Assembly: GCA_015179025.1 (NCBI GenBank)
Contig: WHUX01000019.1
Coordinates: forward strand, 434,001-498,000
Direction: 5' to 3'
Source of the DNA: Terfezia claveryi
Lineage: Eukaryota > Ascomycota > Pezizomycetes > Pezizales > Pezizaceae
Length of the DNA: 64,000 nucleotides
Positions 1 through 56,992 of this stretch are shown piece after piece (within the stretch, counting starts at the first letter, position 1; each line of letters begins with the position of its first letter). The position numbers and the translations under genes are program-made. Under the pieces are notes generated by a model that made no database searches, was not told where the DNA came from, and worked only from the letters and a program-made list of their open reading frames with translations.

Positions 1-3000
1 GCAAGCTATATTGCTTTGCTTATTATATCTTAAATTGAATATTAAAGAAAACTCTATTTGCTTTTGGTGGTTTGCTTAGTACTTACTATAGTATTTCTCA
101 TGTTAGATGAATGGAGACTCCTGCATCATTCTGTCCATCACGAATAGGATTTGATCTGGTTATGGGTCCTAGCTAATACATGGTTTTGTAACAGTCCCTA
201 ACAGTTGTTGAATTAGAGATCTCAAAGCACCATCTATACCCCAGAGGCTACCTCAATAGGCCCTCAATAGGCCACCTCAATATGCCAACTCTATAATAGC
301 CCTATGAAATAAGATACGCTCGACTATATGCTATCTTGGCATTACATCCACTCCAGTGGAACGAACCCAAAGGTGTTAGCATGCGACATGCATATGTGTG
401 CATTAACTTGTGTCCAGACGTTACACATATCATTACAGTACTAGCTGGGTAAGCAGGATGGCCCTTGTAACAAAGCATTTCTCCAGAACTTGCTAGACAT
501 TGTCCAACGCTACTCTGCAACTTCGAAGGCTACATGCTGTCTCTAGAAGATCAGAGAGAAATCAATCGAGGTGAAACTTGCTGTCTCTTTGTCCCTGTAG
601 GGAGAAACCCAGAAATGGCAAATTGGGCGGACATGGTCTGAGACCAAGAGATCCAAATATGGCACACCGGGCAAAACTGTGGAAGGATAAAAGAGCAGGA
701 AATTGTCGGCTGGAGTAAGGGTTTTTCTTTCTTTTTCTTTCTTTAGAGTACTAGAACCATAGCATCAAGGCTATAGCGATCTCTAGAAAACTCTTTTATT
801 ATCACTTTGAATACACGCACTCTACTCTCTTCACGATTCCTCCGCTTAATAACCTCGTAAGCTTACAGTCCCACCATCCACCACCATAGAGGGAGAGTTA
901 TTCCTCTACTGGCGTCAGCTGGGCGTAGATTCATCGGATTAATACATACCGTTAGGATCTGGTTTTTTTACTTCAAACCAGCTGTCATGGCCCAGCACGG
1001 TACAGATTTGCACGGAGGCGTTAAATAAATACTATAGTTCCGCATACCAGAGCAGGAGAACTTCCCGACTGTTCCAATGAAAACTGCCGAGACTGGCCCC
1101 GCCTTGGAATCAACCGTATCAATCGGTTAGGCGCAAATTTAAAATCAGGAGTTTGAGTGAGAAGATTATACCAGCGCGTTGCATTAGTTACCCTGAGTTA
1201 CATGCTTTTAATTATCCTCCTTGCTGCCAGCATCCCCATGACTGAGATTAAGCGAGAGGAGAGCGCTTTGTTATGGCTCATACAAGCTTTTCCAACGCCT
1301 CTTCGATTATTTACTCTCTCTTGTTCACGCGGACGGCCACATATTGCCTGTCCTGATATTCACTAAAGAGACGTTTCCAAACGCATAATGAAGTATTTAA
1401 AGTGAGCGAACCTTGAAGCTGAATATGATTGTCTTCTTTCTTTGATGTTTTGAGGATACCATTATATGTCAATGGAGGTGCAGGGGATAGACCCCGCCGA
1501 GTTAGCAGGTAAGATAGATTCCTCCAGAGTAAATTATCCACAAAGCGATCGAGGTAGCAGATGGTAAACAGTGGCCCAAGTGTTGATAAAGATAGCAAAG
1601 ATGAGAGTACTATGAGTCCCAGGATACATAACAGCACAACTATTCATGGGATTCAACCTTAGGGTAAGAATCGAATCGAGAGCATACAATTGGCCTGGTG
1701 TTGGAGGATTAAGTGGGAGAATGGAAGGATGTGAAAACTAAGATTCATGGATATAGTCTTGTCGAAAGTATTGCTCAGGAATTACGTTCGCAAGAATATG
1801 TCGATGTTCCACATAATGGATCTGAAAGGCAAAAGTCCAGAGCTGAGCCTATGGGCCATTCCGGAAAATTACATGCGAAAAGGCATAGCGCAGAGCTCCT
1901 CTTCGAGGTTTCAGTTCTACGTATCATGGCGAGCCATAGAGATGAAGATGGAATGAATTGAATTCTATTACATTACAATAGTTGTTCCCGCAAAATACCC
2001 CTTGTTCGCTAGTAGAATTTTGTATTCTAATGCATAAAGTTGTAAAGAGACTATGGATATACAGTAGTATATACATACCTATGTCAAGGTAATGCAACGG
2101 TTATTTTCATTAAGTACTTGAGCACTCAATAATAACAAGTAACTTTGGACAGCAGACATGCATATTCCCTAGTCAAAAGCGGCATAATTACAAACATCAG
2201 GTGTTATGCACCTGCAGGATTGTTGATTTTCCTTTTGAGCTGAGACCTCAGGAACAAAAGAAAAACTCTCGACCCCTTGTTAGAAGTACTGTATTCAGTA
2301 TATTTATACTGCGAGATTCGATTCCAAGACCCAAGGAAAAGCCTCATATATAATAAGGTCTTATATTGTAACAATCGCCAAATTCCCGGTTGAGAAAAAT
2401 AAGACTTTCAATGCACACTAGCGCATCACTATCGCCAGACTAAGCCAGTTTGGACTTCTGCTGGTTAATGAGTCTGGACGCCAAATACCATATAACTATA
2501 GTCTGGTTGGCACGTAACCAACGTGGTTGCTCATAGTAAGGGTTTTTCTCTCTTATTTCCCGCATGCACAATATGAAAGAAATTTCTTGTCATGGTGCTC
2601 GGATTAATTTCTTATCACTCATAGAAAGAGGCCTTTCTAGGTTAGGAGACGCTCCCTGTCACTGCGGGGCAACTGATGTTACGATATCAACCAAGAGTTT
2701 GGTCCCATGGTGTAGTAGATCATCGGCCCGGGTTAATTCAGCTCATCGGTATCAGCCGTTATCTGCGGTCTCAGTCTCGAACTTCGACATGAGGCTCAAG
2801 CAGTAAGCACCCTGCGCCAGTGGTAATGCAGGCCAATTGCTCTGACTACTGCTTCCGAGCAGCAAGCTACGATTTTCGTCCATGTGTGTGATGAACAAGA
2901 TGAATTGGATGACATTGGATAGCTAGATGCGTGCTTTGAATCTAAATCTAAGATTATGAGGGAATGAAGCTGTACAATCCTGTCAATAAATCATGCGTTG

Positions 3001-4077
3001 GCCTTTTGTATCAAGCCTGGCGGTAGTGCGGATTCCTGACATAGGGAGCGATGCGCTGGCAAACAACTACATGAGACAAGCGGCGCTTGGACATTGGGCA
3101 TAAAAGAAAGGGAAAGTAGGCATTGAATATGGCATGTGACTATGGCATTTGGATTGGGAATTCCTAAAAGAGGGGAACCCTTGGTTTGGGATCGCCTGGT
3201 GCGAGGCATCCTCTCCTCAACGTATGAAGCAATCAGAGCGTACCTAGTTGGCACTATAACCATACTACAAAATGAAAGTCCGCCGTCGCCCCCTACGTAG
3301 TGGGAAAGACCCGATTTATAATGCATATAGGGAAGAGGATTCTTGTATATTTTTAATGCTGGAGAATTCCTTCATAGATATACATGGTTGTGAAATTGAA
3401 GACCTCGATACCCTAGAGAGGGAGATGGGGTAGTAGGACCTCGATATCTTCCGTAAAGAGATCTGTAAATTACATCTGAGTGTAGATTAGAGCTATCAGT
3501 TCTATAATCCAAACCAGAGTATGACATCTACTTCTACTTTGCTATAGTACACGCACAATACATTTACCGTTAAACTATGGAGGTGATTGGTGATGTGTGG
3601 ATCATTCTATAACGTTACTTATGGACAATACTACTAGTCAGATCTGAAGTACACTATCTCCTAATGGGCAACATTAAAGGGAAACTCTTCTATACCTTGC
3701 TTCACGCATTTGCGTTATTATGTCTAGTCATATAGAGTGACGTAGAGCTGCAAGCTAATCTGAAAACCAAAGTCGTTGGTTTCCAATTCGTTTGCCAGGA
3801 TCCTGAGAACGGCTTGAGCTGCCTGAGAGAGCTTTTTTTCCGTCCATAGGGTCATAAGCGGTTTAGCTCGCCTGTTTGCAGTCTGCCAGCTTGGGGGCAG
3901 CGAGATGAAATCTATCAAATTCCTCGACTGGGCTTCCGCTGGCGTTCGAGTTAAATATCTAATTCTGGAGGGGGTGTGATTTAGTATAGGCCATATATCA
4001 TATATAGATAGCTTGTCACCCTCTGGCAGTTAGAAACAGAAACCTGCAATTGATTTCCTGCAGTACTTATCGTGAGG
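1..4077. other. Gene-poor left flank
   Basis: No reading frame here has a recognisable domain, and the longest open frames (about 110 codons) look random. It holds short local duplications near 240-290 and one copy of the dispersed TAGTCTGG motif at 2499. A shorter look-alike (GCCAGACTA) lies at 2434-2442. I see no tRNA or rRNA gene. It is probably intergenic DNA with decayed repeats. Confidence 0.5.
2499..2513 (+). repeat. Dispersed 15-bp motif, copy 1
   Basis: Perfect copy of TAGTCTGGTTGGCAC. The flanks are only weakly repeated: ATATAACTA before it and ACGTAACCA from 2512 match at 6 of 9 positions if the insert is taken as 13 nt. This may be an old insertion with diverged target repeats. 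See the finding on 9-bp duplications. Confidence 0.6.
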
Positions 4078-7000
4078 ATGGTTAAACGCGGAGCGCACGA
4101 GATTTTATGCGAGGAGGAGAAAAGGTTGAAGGAGGACAAGGAAAAAAAGAAGTACTGGAAGCGATGGGGACCTTACTTGAGCGAGCGTCAATGGGCCACA
4201 GGTATGTTGGAGAGTTCAATTGGCTTGAAAACTTTGCTGACATGAGTCTGGAAGTGCGTGAGGATTATTCGTAAGTTACCGGATCAGGGATTACTCTTTT
4301 TGACTAGCTAACGGCAGCCTCAAAGTCATGATGGTGATGCCTGGGGCCATTTCCCCCACGAGCACGCGCGGTCTCGCACATTTCGATGGGGAGAAGATGG
4401 AATTGCTGGAGTTTCAGACTCCCATGGGCTTCAGAATATAGCGTTTGCCTTTTGGAATGAAAAAGAGTAAGTATTGGAAACCGATGCCAGAAAACCAAAG
4501 CTCAGTAGCTAATTAATATGCTCTAGTGATTTCCTGAAGGAACGTCTATTTGGTTTGTCCAACCCTGAGGGTAATCACGGGGAGAGTTTGAAAGAAGCAC
4601 ATTTCCACCTGGACAACACACCTACAGTATGCCTTATGAGAGAAAGATCATTCCGGAATATTCGCTAATGCGATTACAGCACTCCTACATGAAATACCTC
4701 TACAAATACACACAGAAGAAGTTTCCATACGAGAAATTGGTTGAGGAAAATAAGAAGCGAACAAAAAAAGAGCGTGAATACACTATCCTTGACTCTGGTG
4801 CATTTGAGTGAGTCTAGGATCCTCTTTTTATTGAGAATTTAGAAATTGACATTGAGTGCAGCGAGGACCGATACTTCGACATCATCATTGAGGTGGCTAA
4901 AGACACCGATGATGAGGAGGAGCTACTCTTTCGAGTAACAGCATGGAACAGGGGTCCCGAGCCGGCACCACTGCACATCATTCCCCATGTGTGGTTCCGG
5001 AACACATGGTCATGGGGATATGAAGCGCCGGAAAAAACACCAGTGATAAAGAAGGAAGATGATTTCACTCTCAGGTCTGAGCACCATAAGCTTGGTGAAC
5101 GGTTTCTACAATATAGTCCTTCTCCTGGAGTCGCAGCAGGTTCCAACGACGTTCTGCCAGAACTTCTTTTCACAGATAATGATACGAATTTCAAGAAGTT
5201 GTATAGTGGAGAGAACAAGTCACCTTATGTCAAGGATGCTTTCCATGCCTATATTGTCGATAGTGAGAAGTGGGCCGTAAATCCAGCCTGCGAAGGTACC
5301 AAAGCTGCGGCGTGGTATGCGTTTGAAGAGGGTGATGGAGTTCCACCTGGTGGATGTGCGGTTGTCCGTTTCAAGTTCTCAAGGAAGGTAGAGGAGGAAG
5401 GTATCGATGAAGAATACTTTGATGATATAATTGAGTTGAGGAGGAGTGAGGCAGATGATTTTTACTGGAGAATTAGCCCTCTACCGATGGCGGATGACTT
5501 GAGAAATGTCCAGAGACAGGCCTTGTCAGGAATGTTATGGACGAAACAATACTACCACTTCGTTTGGGATCAATGGGCCAACGGTAAGTAGATAGCATAA
5601 TTGGCTATGGAGAAGTATGGATGTGCTAATGATTATTTTTGATCCAATAGGTGACCCGGCGCAACCTCCACCCCCAGAGAGCAGGAAGAATATAAGAAAT
5701 TATCAATGGAAACACATGCACATCGACGATATTCTCTCCATGCCAGATAATTGGGAATATCCATTCTTGTGGGTCTATAACCACCACTGACCTGGCCCTG
5801 TGACTGACTTAGTAATAGTGCTGCTTGGGATACTGCCTTCCATGCCATTCCGTTGGCAATGATTGATCCTGAATTCGCCAAAAAGCAGTTGGATCTACTG
5901 ACAAGAGAGTGGTATATGCATCCTAATGGACAGGCACGTTTCTATTATCTCTCAGTGTATGTACCAACCTAATTGTATCTAGATTCCTGCATATGAGTGG
6001 AATTTCGGAGATGTGAATCCGCCTGTGCACGCCTGGTCAGTGTTCAGGACATTTAAGATCGAGAGGAAACTGTACGGGAGGGAAGACATCGACTTCCTGG
6101 AGCGGGTTTTTCAAAAGCTTCTTTTGAACTTCACATGGTGGGTTAATCGAAAGGTCAGTTTACCCTGAAATGATGAAAGGAAAACCTTTTACTGAGATGA
6201 ACCGCAAATAGGATAATGAAGGAAATAACCTTTTCGAAGGTGGTTTCCTGGGGCTGGACAACATTGGTTTGTTTAACCGTTCAGAGCCTTTACCAACTGG
6301 AGGAACTCTTCAACAAGCAGATAGTACAGGCTGGATGGCATTTTACTGCCTTTGCATGTTGAATATCGCTTTGGAGTTGGCGAAGCACAGGCGTATTTAT
6401 GAAGATAGTAGGCAACATGGCTCTCTATAATTCGACGTGCTAACAATTTTTTAGTTGCCTCTAAATTTTTTGAGCACTTTATCCTTATTAGCGATGCGAT
6501 GACTTATAAAGATGCGGAGAACAAGGAGGCTTCTCTCTGGAACGAGTCTGACGGCTTTTATTACGATGCCATCTCTTGGGGAGGCCCTTGGACACAGCAG
6601 CTTCCAGTCAGATCACTCGTCGGATTGATACCGCTCTATGCTGTGCTCACCTTGGAGCCTGAGCTGATTGAGAAGCTCCCTTCCTTTAAAAAGCGAGTCG
6701 ACTGGTTCATAGAGCACAGGAACGATATGGCTGAGAGGAACATGAGCAGTATGAGAAAAAGAGGGAAGGGAAAGCGAATGCTACTCAGTTTGGTAAATGA
6801 AGATAGGCTGGTGAAGATCTTGCAGAAGATGTTGGATGAGACAGAATTTTTTTCCGAGTATGGTATCAGATCGCTGTCAAAATATCACAATGACCACCCA
6901 TACTCAATGGATGTCCACGGGCAAGAGTTCAAAGTTTCCTATGTGCCTGGAGACTCTGACAGTGGCTTGTTTGGTGGGAACAGTAACTGGAGAGGAGTAA

Positions 7001-7805
7001 GTCATTGTGTGTTATCCTCAATTTAGTTATCGACACTAACACGAAGTTAACTTGAAAGCCGATCTGGCTTTGTGTCAATTTCCTCCTCATTGAGTCCCTT
7101 CTCCGGTTCTACATTTACTATGGTGATTCCCTGAAGGTCGAGTGTCCTACAGGCTCGGGAGAATATATGCATTTGGGGCACGTTGCAGAAGAGCTTCAGC
7201 ATCGCCTCCAACACATCTTCGCTAGAGGTGACGATGGCCGCCGTGCCTGCAACGATGGGAACGACAAGCTCGACTACGACCAGCACTGGGCGAATTACTT
7301 GTGGTTCCACGAGTTCTTTGATGGAGACACTGGCAGAGGGCTTGGCGCGTCTCACCAAACAGGCTGGACAGGTCTCATCGCGAAAATGATACATGACTCT
7401 GGTGTCAACTGCCGTCTTCCACATACTCCCCGTACACCGGCTTCTGGAATGCGCCACTACTTTGATGAGACTATGAGCACAAAACCTAAGCCATATATAG
7501 GTAGTAGGAGAATGAGCACTAGGTCTATTGCTGGGAGAAGTGATTTCGGGTCCGAGGCAGATGATGACCATGAGGATGAGAAGCAGAGGGAGATTGACGA
7601 TAAACGTGTGTTGGATTATGTGTCCAGCCAGTTGCACAGGGTCAAGAGTCACGATACGACTTTTGATTTTGATCCGAATGAAGGAGAAAATGAGTTTGAG
7701 GCACAGGCAGATAATGGCCCGGGGACGTGGAGAATGAAGAATGGGGTTGATGCACAGGCAGATAATGGCGCGGGGACGTGGAGCACAGCGAATGGATTTC
7801 ATTAA
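4078..7805 (+). CDS. GH63-like glycoside hydrolase (12 exons)
   Basis: Predicted 1039-residue protein. Exons: 4078-4201, 4255-4270, 4326-4466, 4527-4626, 4680-4807, 4862-5583, 5651-5768, 5819-5933, 5983-6153, 6212-6407, 6455-6996, 7059-7805; the sum is divisible by three. The N-terminus carries [17 protein letters not shown] followed by an [14 protein letters not shown] block. These, with the downstream [15 protein letters not shown] and NPPVHAW blocks, are typical of fungal cytosolic proteins with the glycosyl hydrolase 63 fold (an alpha/alpha barrel related to mannosyl-oligosaccharide glucosidase). There is no signal peptide or membrane anchor, so it is unlikely to be the ER glucosidase I; the substrate is unknown. 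Intron 8 begins with GC (CAG|GCACGT). The last exon ends in a 51-bp tandem duplication coding two near-identical 17-residue units. The fold call is fairly sure, the reaction is not. Confidence 0.85.
7701..7801 (+). repeat. 51-bp in-frame tandem duplication
   Basis: GCACAGGCAGATAATGGC recurs exactly 51 bp apart (7701 and 7752), with one mismatch over about 31 bp. It codes [10 protein letters not shown] then [10 protein letters not shown] at the extreme C-terminus of the GH63-like protein. The second half of each unit has diverged. Confidence 0.9.
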
Positions 7806-8563
7806 GGAAGCTGTTTGAGGGGGGTGGAGTTTTGGGCCAATGTATATGGGCAATATGCACTGGATAGGCTAGAGGGATTGTATTTATTATTATCTGGACT
7901 TTGTTATATACCTTGGTGGGTAGAGAAATGAATCACTTGGGTTAGGGACAACCTTGTCATGGTACCAATTGTCATAAGATCCTGCGGTACACAAAACTAG
8001 AGTCAAAGTCTGCACCAATGTATGGTGCAATCATATTGGAAACAGCAAGCCACAGTTGAACGGTCAAAATGCGAAAGATTTTGGAAAAACATGTTCTTAT
8101 TTCTTTCTGTAAAAAACAATGGATGGCACAAGTAAGGTATTTAGACCATTGAAAGATGGACCTCCACACCCATGGAGGACGGGGTGCAGCGGTGAGTAGG
8201 TGGTCATAAATCTTCTTTGCACCAAAATAGGGTCAAGCCATGGATGTGTATGCTGGACCCAGAGTGTTGGCAAAGGTTTGAAAAAGTAGAGGGGACAATG
8301 AGGTGAAAGAGAACAGAGGCGAGAACGAGAATAATATGACAAGTGCTTTTGTATGCTTTGAATTTATTATATTGCTCATCTATTGTACATAGAATATGAA
8401 TTCTGAGGGGTATAGCTGATGATTCCCAAAGAGGGTCGGGTCGAGACTAAGCTGATGAATCCTAGAAAGCCTTTAATGCCAAACATGTTAGTGAATGTTG
8501 ACTTTAGATATATCACGAGGTGCAAATGTTCATGTGAATAGAAACTGAAATCTGTGTCTTTGA
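7806..8563. other. Convergent intergenic region
   Basis: Lies between the 3' ends of the GH63-like gene and the small gene on the other strand. Only short frames without recognisable motifs are present. I see nothing else in it beyond AT-rich 3' flanks. Confidence 0.5.
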
Positions 8564-11375: not shown

Positions 11376-12014
11376 ATGATGACATATACCAACTCCAACC
11401 ATCAACACAATGTGTCCCAAGCACCCCAACAGATTCAAGCTGGGCATCCAGGGCCTACGCCTCATGCAATGCAGCATTTACATCCAAATCCGCACTTCCA
11501 ACAACAACATATGCAAGCAAGTTAGTTACATTCGTTCCTTACATGCACATATATATCCCGGAACAGTCGCTTCAGAGCACGCAAGAGAATTGAATGCAAT
11601 CGTCTTTAGCGATATATCCTGAGCCCTGGCTAACTATATGCGCATTCAGTGGCCAATGTGAACAACCCACAGTTGCTCCAACAGCGATTCCTTCGACATC
11701 CGCAACAAATGTTTATGAACGGCCTGGCAGTCTCTAGTGCAGGCAATCCAGGTACTGCCCCTGAATCTCAGCAATTTGCTCGGGCATTCATGCCTAACGG
11801 GATACATGTAGGCGTATCAGGTAATCCACAGAACGCTGGTATAGCAGGATTTGTTGGTGCAAACCCCCATCATATGCGGAGTCAGATGTTGCACCAACAG
11901 GTAAGAGTCCCAGTAAAGCTTTTGATAGGCCCATCTAATATATCTCTCAATAGCATCTACAAGCTCAAGCAGTCCAACAAGCTCAGATCCACCAACACCA
12001 ACAACAACAGCAGC

Positions 12015-21327: not shown

Positions 21328-21428
21328 TCTGTTTGCATGCAACGCCGGCGCATTCGGGGTATACCCGTATGTAAAATGGTCTGATCGAGACTAATGTAAA
21401 AAGGACCGCAAAAGTCCCAACTCTACAG

Positions 21429-21438
21429 TAGTCTGGTT
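21429..21438 (+). repeat. Short TAGTCTGGTT insertion with 9-bp repeats
   Basis: The 10 nt TAGTCTGGTT are bordered by ACTCTACAG (21420-21428) and ATTCTACAG (21439-21447), which match at 8 of 9 positions. The insert equals the first 10 nt of the 15-nt motif seen elsewhere. Confidence 0.65.
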
Positions 21439-22444
21439 ATTCTACAGCTATTGTCGAGTGTTGTTTTCCTACTGCAAGAATGACGCCCGAATAAATATAT
21501 AAACACATAAAGATTTGTATCTAGATCTCGATTCATTACAGAGTAGAAGATTTTCACAGAAAAAAATAATGCTGTGCACGAGGATTAAAAAATTTGTGAG
21601 CCCCGCCTTCAGGACGCATAACATGGTGGGGGTGCCAAAACTGAACATTTTATTTTCCGTTACCGGTACTCTGCATGTGGGCACATTGATGGTTCGAGTC
21701 ACGAGACATCAAGACTAACCTGATGATCGATATATCCATGACCATTGGTATTGCAGCTTGAAATATCGCTGGTGTCCCTGGGATTGAGTATGTACTTATG
21801 CTTTGAGATTTTCCTTTCTAAAAGCCTTTGAAACCTCCGATTCAGATTTGAGTGCCGTATTCAGGGTAACCACTGTCATTAGTTCCCTTTTTGCACAAAA
21901 ACTGCTATAGTTTTGGGTTTTTAAATGCTTTAGCAAAATCAATACCTTATAGGTATATGTGGATTTGGTGATATTGAGTGATGACGCGGCATTTGCTATT
22001 TCAAAAGTAAACCTACGTTAAATACTTGATATGATGAAGCAATGATTCGACAGTGTATGTGTTAGCACCCAAGATACTCTTTACGGAACATACATCTCAG
22101 CTGTAAGACATAAAAGTTGCTTAGAAGGCAGAGGCCCATTAAGCAATTAAGCAATTCGATTAAATAGAAGACGAGAAAGGCAATAGAACTTATAAGTCGT
22201 TTCAGTTGCGCATGATCGATCGTGATATCTGCCTTAAACCTTTCAATGAACTCTCATCCGTAAGCCACACACAAATAATCTCCCATATACCTGCTAATTT
22301 TTGAACCACCCAAGCCATTTCCCTATCCCCCTAGCACCCATGTATTTACTCATGCACATTCCTTTGCCTGCCTGTATAGTGTTGTCGTCGAGTCGGGCAG
22401 CGCAAATAGAAAACATCAGGACTCTACTCGACTTTCCAGAAACT

Positions 22445-25623: not shown

Positions 25624-25638
25624 GTGCAAGCCAGACTA
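25624..25638 (-). repeat. Variant of the dispersed motif (GCTTGC type)
   Basis: GTGCAAGCCAGACTA, the reverse complement of TAGTCTGGCTTGCAC, 13 of 15 identical to the main form. The 9 nt after it (AAGTAGGTA) match CAGTAGGTA at 25571-25579 at 8 of 9, which would make a 59-nt insert; this reading is tentative. Confidence 0.5.
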
Positions 25639-25655
25639 AAGTAGGTACCTAGTCT

Positions 25656-25670
25656 TAGTCTGGTTGGCAC
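25656..25670 (+). repeat. 15-bp insertion with perfect 9-bp target repeats
   Basis: TAGTCTGGTTGGCAC is bordered on both sides, with no gap, by ACCTAGTCT (25647-25655 and 25671-25679). This is the clearest single example of the family. Confidence 0.9.
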
Positions 25671-26895
25671 ACCTAGTCTCATCTACGTTTGGCAGGTAAT
25701 ATTAGGCCTCCCGGATCCCGCCGTGCAGAGATATCGAGGCAAGACTGGGATGTTATGGTATGCAGGACAAGTGTTCCAGCATTGCATATGTGCATATGCA
25801 TGGAGTATAAAGTCTCTACATATTTGAGCACAAGCATGAATGCCTTAGGTACGTTGCTTGTTCGTCTGACACCCAGAAACAAACCGAAGCAAACATCAAA
25901 AACTTCCTTCAACATATACAACTAAGTCTGGCTGCCCTCTAGCTACACGTGATCACAAAGATCCATCCAACTCTATTCAATTCTCGTTGGCCACGGATAA
26001 GCGTCACTCCCTGGCATAGCGTGCGTCAATTAATAATTATGCTGACTCTGTCTATGTACACACTCACCTCCTAGACAAAGCAGTCTCGCAAGCACGAGAA
26101 GTCCCGACATAAGCCCGATATTCCTGATATTCTCACACAGCTCCAACTCCAACCTACTCTTCTATTCAACGTTAAAATCAAGTGTGTAGGTTGACCAGAA
26201 CAGACCGTAGGACATCCAAAGACAAGAGTTGGTACTGGCGGTCTGCAGCCCTTTTAAAAAAACACCCCGCTACAGTCACCCCGCTCTATCCCCTCCTCCT
26301 CCTTCTGCACCCGTGGCCAGGGTCCATTTGTCACCAAAACACCCCGATCCAGTTTCGAAACCCGAATATCTTATAACGCGCTCTTTTCTCTGCTCCGACC
26401 CCTCGGTGACACTCTTACAGTCTCCAGCCTTCATCCTTCAGCCTCGGCACCCTCCTCACCCTGTCCACTCCTTACATCAACATCAACAACATTCACAAAG
26501 ATCAGGCTAGTTAGGTTTCAGTGAGCGTCCACAATACAATAACCTTCCTGAGTCCTTCACTCACTCTATTCATTTTAGGGCTGGTGAATTGAGCCTCGAA
26601 TCCCTCCACTTCAAAGGTTTCCGGAATCTCACTCCTTACTCCGAACCAGAATCACACGAAGCATCGAACAAACCGACAGAGGTTTCAATAAATTATAATC
26701 TGTTTCTTAGATTCAATTTCATTGCGGTCCTCGACAGCCACTCCTTGTAACTCCTCGGCCATCGCTGGATCTTCGCGCCTATTGCGGGAGTGCTGAATTC
26801 ATTGGCCCTCACCTATCCGGTACCCCGTCCGCCGTTGGCAACAAGTTCCCTACCCCTACCTTGAGTGCCACTATTGGCCACTCCAGACACTCATC

Positions 26896-33378: not shown

Positions 33379-35028
33379 TGTTGCTGTTTAATCTCTGAAG
33401 TTATAACGGCAAGTGTTGGGGAATTGTCAAAGAACTTGACTGTTGGTTTCGTATGTGCTGCTGTAGTCTTCTTATACGGTAGTGTTACTGCTGCTGTTGG
33501 TTATAAAATAAAAATCCAGGAGGGAATACGAGCTTATATAATAAGTAAATGGCCAACACCGTTTGCAAAGCGCCTACCTAATGGCGGCGGCTTCTATCCC
33601 CGCAGCACCAGCGCCTGCAGCTGCTACGCCCACCACCTGCCTGCTAACCCAACAACGGAACGAAGAACCCTGAATATTGCTTCCGGGGGACGAAACCTGG
33701 CATGGCCCAAATCCACGGCGTTTGAACATCGTCCAATCCTGTCAATCAATGTAACCCCTGCCGTTTGTGATCGACTCTGCCTCTTCCCATCCCAAGCACC
33801 CCGTCAGCTTTTGAGGCGATTCATCCCCACAGTGACTACATACGAGGATCTCAGACTGTTGTCACAGGCAGGTGTTCTAGTATCCTCCATAATTATCAGC
33901 AGGGAAGTTTTCGGATCCTGGCCAAGAAAAGCAATGTGGTACCGGTTGTGGCGGCAGTAGGCTATGCCAGAGACGCACTCTATACTTTATACCGCTACAT
34001 TAGGTGCCCACTGTACGGGCGATGCTCCGTGTCACGATGATCGTGATGGTGTGCGATCAAGAGGAGAGGACCATGCTGTCGAGCCAGCAAAATAAGAATT
34101 GAGCCTTCGGTGTTTACAGAGAAGATTAGCAAGATGCATCTGGTGCTCCATAAGTATTGGATGGGAAATCTGTCGATGATTCTAGGACTCTACATGTCAG
34201 GGACAAAGCCAGGTCAACGTTTATTATTGGGGCTTAGCACTCCTTCTGACCGTGGCTACTGCACCTGTTTTATACAGATAGCCGAACGGACTACCGTACG
34301 TCTTGGTACCGGTAACAGCTCATGTATGGAATCCACTCGGAAGCGGGGCGAGTGAGACAGGAACTGTAACTTACAGTACTCCGAGACACCCGTAGTTTCA
34401 CCCGGTGATTTCTACGGAACCTGGTGTATATTGTACATACATGTTAGCCACTCTCCAGCTTTCCCAAAACAATTGTCACCAAACACCAACACCCGCAGTA
34501 CAATCAGGACATAACCATTCTTCCCCCAGCGTGGCCTTGTCAATCACAACATAGTCAACTAAGAGGACAAGGTCCTTGACGTTGGCTCTGGCTGCACCAA
34601 CCGCCCCGGACTTGTACTAACATCTCTTCGCGGGGGGAAATCACCCACCTATTCTCCCTTCCATACAGAGTATCTTTCATGCTCATGTTGGAGTTATCGT
34701 CACCCGTTCCCTAAATACCCGCCAGTTAATACATACATACTGTACTTCATAAACTCCACTCGTGAATGACCTCCACACTCAATGCTACATACAGTACAAC
34801 GTTATAGTAGTATATGTAGGCGGACTGTATGGCGCTGTCAGAGGCTTTTTCAATTCACCAGCAAGTGACACCGGATGTCAAGGTATCCTGATGCAATTCC
34901 TCGCTTATACGACTACACTGTCCTCCGAAGTTGTTGTCATGGGTATTAATTTATAACGGAATCTCAACCGAATGGGTTTCACAAAGCGAACTATCCTAAA
35001 AAGGGCCGTCGCAACAAATGCTTGCATT

Positions 35029-35035
35029 TAGTCTG
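35029..35035 (+). repeat. 7-nt TAGTCTG insertion, first of three
   Basis: TAGTCTG is bordered by GCTTGCATT at 35020-35028 and 35036-35044, a perfect 9-bp direct repeat. Read the other way, 35029-35043 is a 15-nt variant copy (TAGTCTGGCTTGCAT), so the boundary is ambiguous. Confidence 0.55.
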
Positions 35036-35045
35036 GCTTGCATTT

Positions 35046-35063
35046 CTTGTGCCAACCAGACTA
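35046..35063 (-). repeat. 18-nt insertion, second of three
   Basis: CTTGTGCCAACCAGACTA lies between CTTGCATTT (35037-35045) and CTTGCGTTT (35064-35072), 8 of 9 identical. The 18 nt equal the last 18 nt of the 30-nt insert at 51524-51553. Confidence 0.75.
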
Positions 35064-35071
35064 CTTGCGTT

Positions 35072-35086
35072 TAGTCTGGTTGGCAC
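35072..35086 (+). repeat. 15-nt insertion, third of three
   Basis: TAGTCTGGTTGGCAC lies between ACTTGCGTT (35063-35071) and ACTTGCATT (35087-35095), 8 of 9 identical. Confidence 0.8.
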
Positions 35087-36363
35087 ACTTGCATTGCCAC
35101 TAGCGTTCTGGTCTTGGGATCCCAATGCAAGGCGCAGTCGCAAATCGACAAATCTCCTCTTCAAGGCATATTTGCGCGGCGAAACAGTGACGATGAAAAA
35201 AAATTGTTAATTTCTGCACATGCACGCCTTTTTTTCAGTGGCGTGTTGCGAAACGGGGATATGCCGCTTCGGCTTTCAGCGGATCTGAGTTACAGTACAC
35301 GTATCTCCACGGGCATAGGAATGCTTCGGTGAATAAGCTATACTTTGTCGGCCGAAATTGAAACATATTCAACGGCATTGTTATTGCGGTTCATGATTCA
35401 TCATGATCACTACCTACTGACTCAGGAGGCGTGTTGAAGCACCAGGAATTTTAGGAGAGCAGAACAGCTCACAGTTGAATGAATCACTAATCACTATCAA
35501 TTACAAGGCGCTCGAGCTCTAGTCCTTTATTTGTACTATATTTACAAGAGTATACCTTGCAGGCAGTGTTTCGAGCCCCGAATGCGCTGCGTAGGCGCTA
35601 CATTTTGCATATGGCTGTCCCAAACCTACTCTGCCTTAAAGCACAGTCACTACCTACGCTTACCCTCATCTCGACCAGACCGGTACTTACCCACCTTTCT
35701 ATGTGCTAAACTGCGAAACCAACCAAACTATGCGCAGCCTTGGGACCCGCGCTGTGATAAACGAAAGGTGTCAGGGATCCAATGTTTAACATGTTACTCT
35801 AATAAGTTACCGATCCCGATCGTGAGTGGGGCGGGGTGTTTGTCACAGGGCCGAGGCCGGGGCTATGGGTCGCGCGAGGTGACAGGATTGGCCCTTGAGC
35901 TTGTGTACGTACCTCAATTAGGCACGGAGTACCGTGACTTGGGTACGTTATGGTCAACACAGCCGTTTTTATATTGGGGTTTTTTTATTTTGATTATGCT
36001 AATATATCTATTCTTGTCTTAGGTATCAATCTCCAGGAGTGTCAAGAACAAGCTTATTATACTGCGCCAGTAGACTGACGTTTTGTATGGGTGCCTGTTT
36101 TTATCTCGGCATTCCTGTTACCTGGTCATCTAACGGCAAGTACTGGACATACATTATAAATAAATTTATACCAAAGGCGAAATTGTACATTATCAGCGTT
36201 AAACATTACCAGAACCCCATACCCGTATGATCCGTGGAACCGTCGTCTCTCGTATACGGAAAATTCCAGCTTCAACATCAAGCTGAGACCCAAGCCACAT
36301 CCACAAACGCCCTTGCATACCTCCAACCTCAACAACCTTTTGCTATTCTTATACTTCCCCAAC

Positions 36364-49557: not shown

Positions 49558-49791
49558 TTATCCCATCTCCCCCCATAACTCTTCCCAAGACATCCGTGTA
49601 CTTCGATCTCTAGTCAAGAATTTTACTAATTGAACCTTCTCTTCTTCTGTTGATATCATTGGCTGTCCGTTTCCTTTTCGATTAGCTGGTGTGCCTAGAA
49701 AATAATCGTCAACTTTAATTCCTAAATAATCAAGAGCCATCAGCTGTGGGTACCTAATTTTTGGCTTGACTGTATATTTTGACAGGTCCAA
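49558..49791 (-). pseudogene. Fragment of a Tc1/mariner-like transposase N-terminus
   Basis: A 77-codon frame reads GNGQPMISTEEEKVQLVKF followed by RSTRMSWEELWGEM. This resembles the linker and second helix-turn-helix of fungal Tc1/mariner transposases (the xGRPxxITEExxxxLVxF ... RxxSxEEL pattern). No catalytic part follows in frame. Assignment is by pattern only. Confidence 0.4.
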
Positions 49792-50640
49792 GAGTCAATA
49801 TTTTGGTTGCATCCCCAATTTCTTTCCAATCCACCTTTGCCTTGTCTCGAAGGGCAATAAGCTCAATTCTCTCATCTCCAGTAGTGTTAATTCTTGAAAC
49901 TTCAAAATGACATGATTGATTTTCATCAGATGCTAGGCTCGGAACTTTACCTAAATTCCAAAGGATGCGTGAACAGAATATTCAAGTCCTAAGTCTTATT
50001 ACAGATATCAGCCAGTTGGTCATATTTGATAGGGTCAGAAATTCAACGCTACAGACCGCCGTGCCAACCAGACTACAGACCGCCACGCATATGCGGCTTT
50101 CCCTTACACCCGACCCGAGTACGGCTCAATCTACATATGTATATCGCTCTCCAAGTCCATTTTCATGCAGATTTCAATTCAATTTCAGGGTCATGACAAC
50201 GAGAAGCTCCGCTCTTCTTGCCCATGTGCTTTTTGGTTCTTATAACTGGTATTATGATATGATGATATTCCTAATGTGTCCTGCATGCGCCGGATTAACA
50301 GCATCCCGGAACCGAAAGCCAGATGGCTATCTCCACTAGAGCAAGCTTCTTACCTCCGTGGACTGCACCTTTTCCTCCTCATAATATAGCAAGAGGAGAA
50401 GGTCGTCGACGTGGTCTGCCGACCAGAGCAAGTACTTCTCCTCCAGGTTAGACATACCCATTTCCCTTATGCTTGATCTACTACCGCGATCCAAGATCCA
50501 GCGATATATTGGGATGCTGCGCCTGCTGTGATGCTAGCTCCATGCATTGCGATTCGCTCAAATGAGTATACAGATGGGCCGACAAAAGTGGCAAACCTAT
50601 GAGTGCTGATCAGGGTACCCCCGCTCCTGCTTCGTCACGC
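49792..50640. other. Repeat-bearing intergenic DNA
   Basis: Holds the 15-bp insertion at 50061 and no supported gene. The 124-codon frame at 49965-50339 runs through the insertion and has no recognisable content. Confidence 0.45.
50061..50075 (-). repeat. 15-bp insertion with perfect 9-bp target repeats
   Basis: GTGCCAACCAGACTA is bordered directly by CAGACCGCC at 50052-50060 and 50076-50084. Because the insert ends in CTA, the apparent repeat extends to CTACAGACCGCC. Confidence 0.9.
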
Positions 50641-50654
50641 TACCAAGATGCCAA

Positions 50655-51628
50655 CAACAATTGAGCAGTGCGGATAATGGAATTAAGTGCGGAAGGCTAT
50701 TCCAGGAGAGATATTCAGCATAAATTAGGAATTTCAAAACAAACTGTACAGCGAGTCGTTCAGGAGGGAATTCTGTGGCCAGCTCCAGCCAGCTCCATGA
50801 AGTGGTAGACCAGCAACCCTCAACCTAAGAGACAAAAGCTCTAGAGGCTCTAGAATGCAAATCCTTATGCTTCATTTAGATTTTACTGCAGAGTCTGGAT
50901 TGGGTATATGTTCAGAAACAGTGAGGCGGGTTGGCCATTATGTTAGATGGATTCGCCATAAACCTAGATGTGTCGGCTAAAACGAGTGAAGTGAGCTCGT
51001 AGTCAACAATAAACAACAGTTGAAGAATGGCAAAGAAAATATTGACATGAAATACATGTTGAATTTTATTATCTCCTCGTGGTGAGTTGATGCCAATATT
51101 TCTCCCGTGATTACAGCTATACCATCTATTCCCTCAACCTCCTAATTCAGAATAAGATGAAAGGCACCCTTTTTTTTAAAGAGTGAACGAATATTCTTGG
51201 GAGCTGTTTGGCACAATTCTCTATTAGTTTGAATTCGGTGGCGAGGACGTACATGATAAAGATCGACTTGGCATGAACTCTAAGCAGAAATTTTACACCC
51301 ATATTTGCTTCCACTAGTTTCAGAAGACTCAAACGATGGTGCACCTGGAAATTGAATATTATATCGACTCCAATATGGTATCGGCAGAATTCCTTTGCCA
51401 GCAAGCTCTTTTGATCTCAAATATATTGAGAACGTATGGGGTATTGCAAAAGCTTCGGAGGTACATAATGGCATAACCCAGACAAGCATCCTCATCATAG
51501 ATAGAGAAGGGCCTATCAATGCTCTCTACGAGAGGCTTGTGCCAACCAGACTAATCAATGCTGCTCAGGCTGCCTGGGAAGAGCTACCTTGGGCACGGAT
51601 AAATAGGACCTGCCAATTCGTAAATTGA
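50655..51628 (+). pseudogene. Decayed Tc1/mariner-like transposase
   Basis: The 5' part codes a helix-turn-helix, SRRDIQHKLGISKQTVQRVV, near 50700-50760. The 3' part (51395-51628) codes FDLKYIENVWGIAK and AAWEELPWARINR, the degenerate form of the SPDLNPIENVWG and AAWEELPW blocks that close the DDE catalytic domain. The middle is full of stops and deletions. A 30-nt insertion with 9-bp repeats interrupts the 3' part. Terminal repeats were not found. Confidence 0.72.
51524..51553 (-). repeat. 30-nt insertion inside the transposase relic
   Basis: ATCAATGCT occurs at 51515-51523 and again at 51554-51562. Between them lie 30 nt that begin CTCTACGAGAGG (a small hairpin) and end CTTGTGCCAACCAGACTA. 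Removing the 30 nt and one repeat gives GPINAAQAAWEELPW, the expected transposase sequence, so this is a real insertion. Confidence 0.9.
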
Positions 51629-51686
51629 CAATCATTCATCGTCTAAATTTTTTTTTTTACTCTCTCTATCTATATGTATATGTATC

Positions 51687-51703
51687 TAGCCTTGTTGGCA
51701 CAA
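51687..51703 (+). repeat. Diverged copy of the dispersed motif
   Basis: TAGCCTTGTTGGCACAA differs from the first 17 nt of the long form at two positions. It sits inside a TATGTATATG simple repeat, so the flanking repeats are not informative. Confidence 0.55.
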
Positions 51704-52428
51704 AATGTATATGTATAATGAACAACTTTACTTAAGGTTCGTTGCCGTTCTCAAGGGTTAGAATTTGAAGAAATACATACCCAAAGTGCAGGGACTTGGC
51801 GTCGGCTGATAGGTCTTGGGGTTTTGCCGACAAATTTTCTATGTGAGGGGTCATGCCGGCACCTCTGTGTGTAGTCTGGCTGCCGACCAGACAAGTATTG
51901 GCTTACGGCTAGGAGATGGGGTGGTGTAAGTCAGGCTAAGGTTTAATGTATTACTTGCTACTGAAGGAATATTTTATAAATTTAACTGAGAGCTTGATTC
52001 ATATGGGTTACCCTGATCTTGCGGCCTGGCCGATTTATTTGATGGGTAGCTTAATCAGGGTTACCCTGAATTTAGTCGCGCTCTTAAACCCGGAATACCT
52101 TCAAGGAATCACAGAAAACAGATCCGGCTTTGGGGATCTTAGCAGAACAAGCCTTCTGGGAGCGAGAATACTCGAATTTCTATTTCAGGCATCATACCCT
52201 GCCTGATTATTTGTCTTTGTTTGTGTAACCTCACTTCTGCATTCAAAGATCAAGCCAACAGTAGTTATCATACATTCCACTTGATGCTATCAAACGGAGA
52301 TCGTGGACATGCTTGCATGGAAAAGACCAGGCAATGAAGAAAGGCTATGAAGAAAAAATCGCTTACATAACGACTGGGTACGAGGGTTAACAAATATATA
52401 TTACAATATATAATAGTATGTGTAGTCA

Positions 52429-52443
52429 TTGTCTGGTTGGCAC
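52429..52443 (+). repeat. Dispersed 15-bp motif without flanking repeats
   Basis: TTGTCTGGTTGGCAC followed by AA, as in the long form. I see no 9-bp direct repeat around it. Confidence 0.6.
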
Positions 52444-52630
52444 AACACCCTCCAAAGAAGCAAGCAGAGACGTCAATGAACTTTTAGACTTGTCGTCGAG
52501 TGAAGGGTTGGAATTGCCTCTTCTCCATAGCACCTGCTTCTGACCCCAAATTGCCCAGTTCTATACGAGCTCACATCTCTTAGATTCGCTCCCAGCAATA
52601 ATCCTTCCGATTTAATCTCACTCACTGAGC

Positions 52631-53558
52631 TTATACCAGCGCCCTGACCTCCCCATCCTCATATTTCGCCTTGAAAAAAGTATAACTTAGCGTCACCTGC
52701 TCAATACCTTTCATCAAAGGGTCATTTGAAAACTCCGGGTCAATAAAAAAGAATACTGGCATATCGACTTCCTCCCCCGCGTTCAATTTTTGCTCTTCGA
52801 AGCAGAAACACTGAATCTTGCTGAAATACGGTGCCACTTGTCCTGGAGTTACAGAGTAAGTAGCCACTCCAATTATATCTTCGTCAGAATTATTCTTGGC
52901 CTTGTAGAATGCGAGTGCGGTTTCCCCGGGCAGCACATACACTTCGCGTTGTTGGGGAGTGAATTTCCAATCAAGGGTGGAGGAGACGCTGGAGTTGAAG
53001 GTGACTCGGATGCGGGGTGCCTTCTCTACGGGAAGGAGTTTGTCCGGGGTGAACCTAGTTGAGTCGGTGATGGGAATGCCACCGAAGCCGGTACGCTGGC
53101 AAATGGCACGGTACAAGGGGACGGAGGCATAAGAGAGGGTAAGAGTCGCTAGAATCATGCTGAGAAGCGGAGACAGTCAGCTGGGTTCAGTGGTGGAATG
53201 GAGATTCATCAGGAGCGTAAAGATAGAGGACTGACTACCTGGCTGTGTAGTAAAGGAGGGAGGTATTTTTTTGTTTATAATGGGAGCTATAGTCTGGCCG
53301 GTAGGGGGTCGACCGCCGTACAGCTTGAGTGGCATTGATGGCATTCTGTGTTGAGGGTGGGGGCGGGGGTAGGGTATCCCAGAAGGGAGTTGTAGAGGAA
53401 AAGAAGCGGTTCTGTATTCTCAACACCGCTTTTGGCCCGGAGGCTGTTGAAAATCGAACTATCAATGAAGTGAGTTGAGGTGTCCGTGATGGGGCTGATC
53501 GGCGGAGTAGAAGCGGTGGTGCGCGCCGGAGGCAATGAGAGGCAATTGAGGGTTTCAT
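52631..53558 (-). CDS. cox11: Cytochrome c oxidase assembly protein COX11
   Basis: Predicted 282 residues from exons 53239-53558 and 52631-53159, with intron 53160-53238. COX11 delivers copper to the CuB site of subunit 1 in the mitochondrial inner membrane. The start at 53558 gives an Arg-rich targeting peptide (CLRRAPPLLLRRSAPSR). One membrane segment follows the intron (MILATLTLSYASVPLY). Then come RAICQRTGFGG, and the copper-binding IQCFCFEEQKL with its Cys-x-Cys. The frame stays open 43 codons further upstream, but the chosen ATG is the one that puts the presequence at the very start. Confidence 0.96.
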
Positions 53559-54049
53559 GGTGATCGAATATTGGGGGGGGGGATAACTTTTGGCAGCGTA
53601 GCTTTGGTAATCGAGGGAGAGTTCAATCCACCTCGGCTTTTGTTTACAACGGCTAAGCTTTGAAACACACATCAAATATGGATTCATTTCTCTCGCCGTC
53701 TGTCAACTGCAAATGAACATATATATCATCTTGGCAGAGATCTCAGTGATCTTACCGGCCAAATGATTCAATTGAGAACCCTGTGGGGCGCCGTCATCCG
53801 AACCTTTTTCAACTGGTTACCACCGCAGAATACCCTGCAGGGGCAGAAAAAGCTGCTAGCGCTCAGTACGGTGCCTTAAGCGTAAAAACCAAAGGATGTG
53901 ATAACCATCTTGAAGTCAGTAGGTAGATAATCCATGCATCCTTTGTGGCTTTTATGAACTTCTTTCTAGTCTCGTGCCCTTCTTTCTGTGTTTGTTGTCA
54001 TTGAGCCACCAAAGTAGCACCATTCCAGCATAGAATAGTGCGAGCGACC
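53559..54049. promoter_or_regulatory. Divergent promoter of cox11 and the carrier
   Basis: About 490 bp shared between two genes for mitochondrial inner-membrane proteins transcribed in opposite directions. Co-regulation is plausible. I see no named motif. Confidence 0.45.
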
Positions 54050-55216
54050 ATGGCTGCCAAAAACCCAGCGGCAGCAAAGCCTGGGGCGATGCATTATCCA
54101 TTCTGGTTCGGTGGGAGTGCAAGCTGTATTGCTGCCTGCTTTACACATCCATTGGGTGGGTTCCAATCCTTTTAGGTACAACTGGGCACGTGATTAACCA
54201 TGTTGGTCTTAGATCTGGTGAAGGTCCGAATGCAAACTGCTCGTACTACTGCTGGAGGAGCAACACCGACAATGTTGGGGACCTTTGTGAAGGTTGCACG
54301 GAACGAAGGTATGAGAGAAAAAGTCTACGTGTTTCTGTGGTGTGTAGGGTGGAGCTAACAGAGAGTTACAGGGTTTCTGGCCTTATATAGCGGGGTGAGT
54401 TTACTTGAGGGTAACCCCGCCATATAGCCAGACTGTTATTAAACACTCAATTATAGCTCTCAGCAAGCCTCCTCCGACAGGCAACCTACTCCACCACCCG
54501 CTTCGGCGTCTACGAAACGCTCAAATCTCACTTCCAGCCCCCTGGCGAAACAATTCCTCCTTCCTTTGGTACATTGGTCCTCATGGCCTCCGTTTCCGGC
54601 ATGGCTGGGGGCGCCGCCGGGAACCCAGCCGACATTATCAATGTTCGCATGCAAAACGACCGCTCTCTGCCACCTTCCCAGCGTCTTAACTACAAACATG
54701 CCGTTGACGGTTTTTACAGAATGCTTACGACCGAAGGAGTGTCTTCCCTATTCCGCGGGGTCTGGCCCAACACACTCCGAGCAGCACTTATGACTGCAAG
54801 TCAGCTAGCGACATATGACGAGTTCAAGAAATTAATCTTGGGGGCGGGATTAGGGGGGGATGGAGTAGGAACCCATTTTGCGGCGAGTTTGATGAGTGGC
54901 CTTGTTGCTACGACGGTTTGCAGTCCGGTTGATGTGGTGAAGACGAGGGTCATGGTTGGCCAGGGGAAGGGGGTGGGGGTGTTGAGTGTATTGAAAACGA
55001 CGGTAAAAAAGGAGGGGGTACGGTGGGTGTTTAGGGGCTGGGTGCCAAGTTTTGCGAGATTAGGGTGAGTGTATAGTCTCGTATACTATGAGATTCGTGT
55101 ATTGACAATTTGGGGATAGGCCACATACGATTTTGACATTCATCTTCATGGAACAACACAAGAAGCTGTGGAGAATTATGCACCAGCCAAAGGAGCCCGA
55201 AGCAGTATTTCTTTGA
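54050..55216 (+). CDS. dic1: Mitochondrial dicarboxylate carrier
   Basis: Predicted 309 residues from exons 54050-54155, 54213-54308, 54372-54394, 54457-55064 and 55120-55216. It belongs to the mitochondrial carrier family: three repeats, each with a P-x-D-x-x-K/N signature, seen here as PLDLVK (split by intron 1), PADIIN and PVDVVK. The Asn in the second signature, RMQND after it, and WFGGSASCIAACFTHP at the start match dicarboxylate (malate/phosphate) carriers. Exon 3 is only 23 nt. The stop codon lies in a 16-bp tandem repeat. Confidence 0.92.
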
Positions 55217-55271
55217 ACCAGTACTTCTTTGAACCAGCGCTTCTTTGAACCAGCACTTCTTTAAACCAGCG
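55205..55271 (+). repeat. Four 16-bp tandem units over the dic1 stop
   Basis: The unit CTTCTTTGAACCAGYR is repeated about four times, the last with TTTAAACCAG. The TGA of the first unit is the dic1 stop codon. Confidence 0.9.
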
Positions 55272-56992
55272 GTCAGTTCCTTTGTCCGTTCCCATGTCCA
55301 GCTGCATTTTTCTTTTTTGTTGTGAGATTTTTTTGGCAATTTCAAAAGCATTCATGCAAGATTTACGGCCTTCCTTGTTTTGTTTATTTTTCCTGGTAAA
55401 GATATCCCCATAGACTTGTCCTCTTCAAGTTCTAATCTGTTATTTTTGTTATCGATTTTTGTTGGTTTCTGTACATTTCTTCTTTCTTACAGAGATATTA
55501 TGGAGGGCTTGCGAACTAGAGCTTGGATAGGGAGGAGGTTAAGGATAAAAGTTGGATGATCGCCCAGCTCACTGTCAACATTTACCATATTGGCTTAAGA
55601 AGCTTGGGCATGGTGCAAACAAGAGAATAAGAGACTGGAGTCTTCTGACAAGAGGAGAAATGAGGAATGAGAGTAAGAAGACTCGCCTGGCGGTACAATC
55701 GTATCCCGAAATTCGTTCATAGGTGGGAGTATTAAGTCCGTTGCAACTAAGTAGTTCGGTCCGTGTATGTCACAGCTAGTCAGGGTAACTTGGAAATACA
55801 GTCTCTGGGTTGCTATTCAGCAGTCCAGTTTTGCGTTAGGCTGAGGTGACGTTTCTCAAGATCACAAAGCTTGCGGAAGATGCGGAATATTGAGGTTATG
55901 GGGGAGGATTTTTTTGTCCTCGGTCTGCGGACCTTTCCTATCTTTTGTACATGCATAGCGGGAATCTTGCTTAAGCTTGACATGTTATAGAATGAGAATT
56001 AGTTTATATTAGCAGCAGAATCTAAAAGGGACTGATAGTGATCGAAATGCTGATTCCTATTCGGAACGAAAGGGAGAGTTTGGTTGAAGAGAAAGCTGGT
56101 TCAGATCCTGTTGCAGCGTCTTGACGGATCTCTCATGAGAAATCTCAGAAGGCTATCCTAGCTTTGTAGTCTGGTTACCTTCACACCTAGGAGTCTCCAC
56201 TACCCTCCCCATCTCCATATACCCTGCCTGTGAAATCTACTGGCTTACTCTCCTTAGGTATATTTTCATGGCATCTACACTGTATCACTTTTCACCGTTT
56301 CTGCCACCACGTCCTCTAACACCACTGACACCCCCGGCTTCGTCACTCTCTTCACTCTGTATAGGCCGCCCAAACCTAGCTCCATTTTCGTCCTTGGCTG
56401 CGGACATATCAAGGGAGAGGGAATTCGGGAGGCTCCAGAGTTCGATGTTCTCGGAAATTTAGTCTGGTAACCGAGGTTTCCAGTTCTAAGTAGCCTCTAA
56501 CGGTTGGGAGTGAGTGTAATTGCAAATTAGGAATTGTAGATGAGTATAGATAATCATATATGAGTGTAGATAAGTGTATATAGATAATTGTAGATAATTG
56601 TAGATAACGGTTACGTATAACAGTTAGGCTTACAATAGAACCAAACTAGTTCGGCTCAGACATTATAACCAAGTTACCCTGAGCTTTTGATTTGATAGAC
56701 TTGACCGAAAATACCTTTTTTGACATTGCGTCGATCAACCCATGTTCCCATAACATGAGACAAATTGACACTGTATCTCTACCAGACTACCTGCATCTAC
56801 GGAGGAAATGATGGCAAAGCTGTAAGCAGCTTCATCAGTCTGGCAAAGAGCTCGAGGGTGGTCGCGCAAACCTAGAACCATATCTTTCCCGTAGTTGTCC
56901 TCGTCATCGCACCGGCAAACAAAGGTCCTCCACATATACCCATTTCAATGTTCGCCCAATTATATACCCTCTCCAGCCACACCTCATTCCAT
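55217..56992. other. Gene-poor spacer with simple repeats
   Basis: Contains the 16-bp tandem, two partial motif copies (TAGTCTGGTTACC at 56167 and TAGTCTGGTAACC at 56460), an AT-rich imperfect tandem of TAGATAATTG at about 56540-56607, and an 11-nt insertion candidate at 56779. No gene is supported. Confidence 0.5.
56779..56789 (-). repeat. 11-nt insertion candidate
   Basis: CTACCAGACTA, 10 of 11 identical to the end of the motif, lies between ACTGTATCT (56770-56778) and CCTGCATCT (56790-56798), which match at 7 of 9. Confidence 0.45.

Follow-up and report, generated by a model that had tools for sequence, protein, structure and literature searches.

When a P element leaves, the tips of its terminal repeats remain at the donor site, and its target duplication is 8 bp. 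Passages of a study of the P-element transposase describe a staggered cut that leaves a 17-nt 3' extension (PMC10983969). Mutator-like elements (MULEs) duplicate 8 to 11 bp of target, and of the fungal MULE groups in Ascomycota, Phantom-Ca has a 9-bp duplication with 34-bp terminal repeats and Mutyl a duplication of 9 to 10 bp with 22-bp terminal repeats, according to sections of PMC6446971. At rice excision sites, sections of PMC4423477 report filler together with flank loss, the filler being made of foreign segments. Here, we describe a family of short inserts in the genome of Terfezia claveryi, examined in a 64-kb stretch of contig C101 (positions 434001 to 498000; the window) and beyond it. 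Many of these inserts lie between 9-bp direct repeats that differ from locus to locus. We lean slightly toward reading them as scars left by the excision of a cut-and-paste transposon, or of several related ones, with TAGTCT(G/C)G ends and a 9-bp target duplication. The scar family is real, abundant, and unusual for known elements.

The source is a 72.56-Mb assembly of 794 contigs. By eye, the reading frames of the window are fungal in character; of the named sequences listed for its tryptophan synthase, that of Kalaharituber pfeilii was the best match (82% identity), and further relatives reached up to 92%, which makes the host a Pezizomycetes-like ascomycete. Flank repeats were counted in a 264-kb sample whose choice did not depend on the motif (the window plus 200 kb from contig C1, 0.36% of the genome), and the distinct sequence read in all came to about 309 kb (0.4%). 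In the unselected sample, 38 of 175 TAGTCT sites carried a flank repeat matching at 8 or more of 9 positions, compared with 0.87 expected, a count into which at least one two-ended site entered twice. The window alone contributed 11 of 36 sites, compared with 0.21 expected from re-paired flanks; ten of the eleven are listed in Table 1, and the eleventh, which is unlisted, is a TAGTCT without GG or CG next to it. Control 8-mers, four in number and made by reshuffling the letters, gave 1 of 34 sites. Allowing one mismatch in the first 8 letters yielded flanks of at least 8/9 at 61 of 323 sites (2.7 expected). Among 36 distinct exact copies of the 15-mer TAGTCTGGTTGGCAC, with one palindromic site counted twice, the flanks searched to a distance of 100 nt matched at 9/9 in 14 copies and at 8/9 in 7. 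An initial annotation of the window had put the chance of a perfect match at about 4 in a million per site. That figure is right for one fixed position, but once insert lengths are searched it becomes about 0.1% for 9/9 and 1.7% for 8/9, as estimated from re-paired flanks at 92 offsets. Its conclusion that the repeats are not coincidence is upheld. Insertions with locus-specific 9-bp target duplications are supported, and the excess of flank repeats extends well beyond the window.

The same sequence emerged from a motif-blind screen of all perfect direct repeats around 7 to 40 nt in the 264 kb. TAGTC was the top insert start at repeat lengths of 7, 8, 9, and 10 bp (21, 20, 17, and 6 cases), and the 17 cases at 9 bp compare with 0.34 expected. 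Because perfect repeats around TAGTC fall off beyond 9 bp, we take 9 bp as the duplication length. Next at that length came ACTCA, TGCTC, and GCTTC with 6 cases apiece, and these starts are similar to a tandem array located around C1:4.6-5.4 kb. A symmetric target preference was considered and rejected, since it was inflated by two-ended inserts counted on both strands and became weak once these were removed; the remaining target letters included T at position 1 in 3/32 (P = 0.04) and A at position 9 in 5/32 (not significant).

Copies of the end are numerous throughout the assembly. The exact 15-mer occurs 2,885 times (1,432 forward and 1,453 reverse), while the pattern read backwards occurs 0 times, and the sister-variant 16-mer TAGTCTCGATCAGACC occurs 363 times compared with 2 for its reversed control. 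Within the window, TAGTCTGG had 16 matches compared with 2.0 in shuffles, and the 15-mer with up to three mismatches had 11 compared with 1.6. Scaling by length from 0.36% of the genome, we extrapolate to roughly 10,000 scars genome-wide. A 17-mer of the end had 0 matches in viral contigs, and the 28-mer end had 0 in bacterial and archaeal genomes. In the titles and abstract openings of the best matches from a literature search, the family was not described and the 15-letter end terms had 0 occurrences.

Empty sites, which the initial annotation had proposed to align in related strains, were seen in paralogs within the same genome. Paralogs were sought for 53 inserts with flanks of at least 8/9; for four of them, all on C1, a paralog or set of paralogs spanned the joint, and the insert was absent there in 4/4. 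The paralog at C1:129,331-129,613 has a single repeat and lacks the 15-nt insert that lies near C1:152,120 between two copies of AACATCTAG, and a 34-nt insert near C1:65,870 is likewise missing, with a single repeat, at C1:65,295-65,426. For both inserts, the gap in the paralog equals exactly the insert plus 9. Another 34-nt insert, near C1:152,580, has no counterpart in paralogs of greater divergence at about C1:128.9, 129.8, and 151.7 kb; it is also absent at 144.8 and 151.4 kb, both of which have their own small gaps there. Finally, a 7-nt insert near C1:128,713 is absent near C1:146.5 kb. Duplicated stretches form a local family at C1:128-152 kb (L043 to L046) and served as natural empty sites; by eye, some of them contain tRNA-gene-like sequence.

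To describe the shape of the inserts, we used 59 one-ended sites with flanks of at least 8/9 from which two-ended rows had been removed. Their lengths were 7 (1 site), 9 (1), 10 (5), 11 to 14 (11), 15 (11), 16 to 21 (4), 25 to 36 (17), and 38 to 59 nt (9), and several of the rows of 38 to 59 nt may be neighboring inserts or chance. With perfect flanks, 31 of 32 one-ended inserts were at most 36 nt and one was 46 nt. The range of 7 to 30 nt given by the initial annotation therefore describes the window, but elsewhere one-ended inserts reach these greater lengths and two-ended ones reach 54 nt. Position 15 appears to be a preferred boundary, because 1,269 of the 2,885 15-mer copies depart from the main end there (the other 1,616 continue with AA), although part of the 1,269 belong to other end variants. 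No perfectly flanked tips of 2, 4, 5, or 6 nt were found in the 264 kb with a low-complexity filter on; prefix matches of 1 and 3 nt with perfect flanks made up 23 and 10 rows, including slippage-prone and tandem DNA. At one locus (L010, C1:174,439-174,480), a 15-nt insert sits within an older insert of about 11 to 12 nt, and each has its own flank repeat.

The two boundaries of an insert behave differently. The boundary adjoining TAGTCT defines the repeat by construction; erosion was scored at the opposite one. Single repeat mismatches fell at positions 1 and 2, next to the insert's cut end, in 17 of 27 cases compared with 6 expected (P = 6e-6). Apparently, 1 to 2 nt were lost and replaced at the cut-end joint. 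The initial annotation had left a choice between a mini-insertion process of its own and footprints of a larger element. We favor footprints, because the second end, where it is kept, is the same sequence read inward, no single form is shared by the two-ended inserts, and erosion affects just one of the two joints.

Under the excision-scar reading, an element would insert with a 9-bp target duplication and then leave without clean removal of its ends. One flank would keep a tip, commonly of 10, 15, or 25 to 36 nt, as if the strands were cut in a staggered way within the terminal repeat. The opposite flank would be cut at the target duplication, often trimmed by 1 to 2 nt, and joined to the flank bearing the tip. 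A staggered cut of this kind would readily produce such a one-sided outcome. Where both tips were kept, they would be joined through a few shared letters or with extra letters, giving forms of about 30 to 54 bp. Since every hop can leave a scar, a small number of intact elements would suffice. We give rather little weight to the stronger proposal that a DNA transposition system with a 9-bp stagger usually deposits its terminus of 7 to 36 nt instead of moving, at some ten thousand places, with intact elements rare or gone; if true, this genome would have been overwritten with datable short tags.

The length distribution bears on two other explanations. In abortive insertion, the transposase would join the ends at a 9-bp stagger in the target, and the body would be cut away near the joints while the donor stays in place. 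This would suit the many scars with no intact copy in the part read, the near absence of perfect-flank inserts above 36 nt, and the missing tips of 2, 4, 5, or 6 nt, as if a protein had shielded the tip. However, such a process should mostly leave two tips, whereas the second terminus is absent in all but 4 of 61 rows with flanks of at least 8/9, and the commonest form has one tip with the other side cut at the duplication to within 1 to 2 nt. We regard abortive insertion as unlikely. Similarly improbable in our estimate is a variant of the scar reading and its nearest competitor, interrupted gap repair, in which excision would be clean and the 3' end of a flank would then copy a few nucleotides of the element from a sister copy, stop, and join the other flank. 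One-sided tips with a nearly exact far boundary are what it would produce, and the fold-back stems on some long tips, of a kind a nascent strand might make, are a weak sign in the same direction. Yet gap repair often copies long stretches, and the tips here seldom exceed 36 nt. The stems themselves, of at least 4 bp, occurred in 5 of 17 one-ended inserts of 23 to 36 nt (mean of 2.5 compared with 1.6 for shuffled tails); an earlier impression by eye that fold-back tails are the rule proved weak when counted.

Two-ended inserts offer a view of the parent's ends. Facing ends, TAGTCTGGTTG to CAACCAGACTA with 6 to 36 nt between them, occurred at 128 places (within 58 bp) compared with 0 in the control; some of these places are neighboring inserts. 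Perfect 9/9 repeats flanked 12 of the 22 that were read with their flanks, and shifted repeats were seen at L054 and L070. When 44 two-ended inserts were compared, each side had 12 to 30 nt in common with other ends, and at the joints the two sides overlapped by 1 to 5 nt in 14, met flush in 3, and had unexplained letters between them in 27. The 28-nt end TAGTCTGGTTGGCACAACACCCTCGTAG, with inner core CTCGTAG, has 49 copies compared with 0 for a version with the core mirrored, a result that an intact 49-bp hairpin explains less well than true inverted repeats do. Judging from these letters, the ends would be inverted repeats of at least 28 nt with the interior of the element beyond them.

The same material speaks to whether the inserts move by themselves, as a tiny hairpin element of about 40 to 54 bp whose second arm is usually damaged or missing. 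Near-intact hairpins with 9/9 flanks do exist (e.g., L051, L056, L057, and L066), and L070 is one letter off a 49-bp hairpin, but its repeat is only 8 bp and shifted by one. Against self-mobility, 49 of the 50 two-ended sequences listed (of the 128) differ, none of the 49 core-reaching copies of the end variant tested has an intact second arm, and the one-ended inserts would require deletions that end at the duplication time after time. We consider a mobile hairpin doubtful, and an intact 49-bp hairpin as parent, which L066 and L070 had suggested, was rejected given that no mirrored core occurs for the one variant of the end that was tested. The 50 comprise the 44 compared above and six more, one of which equals one of the 44. 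In both members of this sole identical pair, C90:3743 and C103:97130, a hAT match lies 415 bp away with the same score, so that the pair looks like a duplicated segment and probably stems from a single event that was copied along with the neighboring sequence. Still less probable are RNA-templated inserts, in which the target would receive a copy of a hairpin RNA, begun at the 3' end of the RNA and truncated at the far end. One constant end with an exact joint and one variable end with an eroded joint would fit such a process, but a fixed-length duplication with inverted ends is characteristic of a DDE transposase rather than of target-primed reverse transcription, and the fixed 9-bp duplication and inverted two-ended forms seen here point the same way.

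Inserts also cluster. Among the first 100 places listed, 13 neighbors lay within 100 bp of each other, compared with 0.7 expected, and most of them faced one another (8 in the facing orientation +-, 4 in --, and 1 in -+). This reflects two-ended inserts together with reuse of the same spots, as at window positions 35020-35095. There, three inserts of alternating orientation and with related flank repeats share one target, which suggests repeated use of the spot.

The initial annotation had proposed looking for a full-length element with this terminus. In the sequence read, a search of end pairs up to 9 kb apart gave only forms of 30 and 34 bp, and apart from two-ended forms fetched as such, no pair of ends spanning more than 34 bp with a 9-bp repeat was found in the ~309 kb. 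Considering all 9-bp repeats around inverted ends matching at 10/12, we recovered one further pair only (5.7 kb apart, 10/12). Downstream of 120 sites, there was no common stretch beyond a few 14-mers, except at two sites in one locus. Genome-wide, MULE transposase domains had 21 matches, none tied to the terminus, KDZ had 10, with 9 above the cut-off, and hAT domains were common (150 matches scored of 182 candidates). Facing 28-mers at C12:96587/113217 (16.6 kb) and C723:87114/99763 (12.6 kb) could be whole elements; the C12 pair encloses a hAT domain match, which chance could give. In addition, two short elements at C1:94172 and C1:49593 have 8-bp direct repeats, ends like TAGGCCTGGGCA, and 112 and 521 bp inside, and are hAT-like by repeat length.

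Several observations weigh against excision scars. The ~309 kb of distinct sequence showed no full-length element with the terminus, nor could any transposase be linked to it. PF21787, which we take to be the P-type transposase domain, had 0 matches, as it did in control genomes. Some copies are without a repeat, such as the one at window position 2499. Among two-ended inserts, 10 of 22 were without perfect flanks, some of them being two neighboring inserts, and 27 of 44 joints carry letters from neither end. A 30-nt double 15-mer was found once, which independent retention of both tips would not give. The mirrored-core test excludes intact hairpins of one end variant, and a hairpin with an always-damaged arm would give the same count. 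Lastly, sections of a study of MULE excision in yeast describe it as mostly precise, with at most 13 bp of terminal repeat left occasionally (PMC5225508).

The inserts of the window are collected in Table 1. All ten places where the initial annotation had reported the sequence or a part of it do contain it, and the flank scores it gave were reproduced; it had claimed no repeat at 2499 or 52429. Three further places, all of the TAGTCTCG variant, had been absent from it (8423-8449, 21378-21393, and 53967-53977).

Table 1. Inserts of the end sequence in the 64-kb window, with their flanking repeats
Position	Strand	Insert	Flank match	Flank positions	Remarks
2499..2513	+	15-mer	best 6/9		no recognizable flank repeat
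8423..8449	-	27 nt, TAGTCTCG variant	9/9	8450-8458, 8414-8422	repeats TCATCAGCT (read on -)
21378..21393	-	16 nt, TAGTCTCGATCAGACC	8/9	21394-21402, 21369-21377	
21429..21438	+	10 nt, TAGTCTGGTT	8/9	21420-21428, 21439-21447	mismatch at repeat position 2
25624..25638	-	variant copy TAGTCTGGCTTGCAC	best 6/9 within 40 nt		inverted, adjoins 25656 insert; 8/9 match at 59 nt may be chance
25656..25670	+	15 nt, TAGTCTGGTTGGCAC	9/9	25647-25655, 25671-25679	repeats ACCTAGTCT
35029..35035	+	7 nt, TAGTCTG	9/9	35020-35028, 35036-35044	repeats GCTTGCATT
35046..35063	-	15-mer + 3 nt	8/9		in cluster of three inserts at one target
35072..35086	+	15 nt	8/9	35063-35071, 35087-35095	
50061..50075	-	15 nt	9/9	50076-50084, 50052-50060	
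51524..51553	-	30 nt, TAGTCTGGTTGGCACAAGCCTCTCGTAGAG	9/9	51554-51562, 51515-51523	
52429..52443	+	15-mer with one change, starts TTGTCTGG			no flank repeat by eye
53967..53977	+	11 nt, TAGTCTCGTGC	8/9	53958-53966, 53978-53986	mismatch at position 1
56779..56789	-	11 nt, TAGTCTGGTAG	7/9		weak repeat, doubtful on its own

Cut-and-paste excision is hard to count, since precise excision leaves nothing. With scars that carry a tip, a single genome may preserve a legible and datable account of very many landings and departures, in which insert length would show where the ends were cut. Such scars would allow tests of how the repair of excision sites is divided between staggered cutting and end joining, and they reveal an origin of small insertions that standard repeat annotation would probably overlook.

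Compared with known systems, the scars share features with several. The initial annotation was correct in setting aside Tc1/mariner, as the duplications are locus-specific 9-bp repeats instead of TA. A Mutator-like source, as it suggested, may apply: the duplication length fits, as does the end length, and MULE domains occur in the genome, with none of the matches tied to the terminus. The scars resemble MULEs, as sections of the sources cited above portray them, in a duplication within the range of 8 to 11 bp and in the inverted ends of two-ended forms (at least 28 nt by our estimate); they differ in that tips of 7 to 36 nt are the rule among visible scars, with the proviso that precise excisions would be invisible. 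Both hAT and P elements differ from the scars in duplication length, which is 8 bp in those families and 9 bp here. With P elements (Drosophila, and the THAP9 relatives) the scars share retained tips, and their length distribution, which peaks at 15 nt and includes few tips longer than 36 nt, is compatible with a staggered cut of the kind described in passages of PMC10983969. Like miniature inverted-repeat transposable elements (MITEs), the inserts are short, noncoding, present in many copies, and accompanied by a target duplication, some with two inverted ends. Unlike MITEs, they are mostly one-ended, and the two-ended ones differ from one another instead of forming sets of like copies. Finally, the scars share filler and flank loss with rice footprints as sections of PMC4423477 present them, but the filler here comes from the tip of the element itself and recurs with one sequence at many loci.

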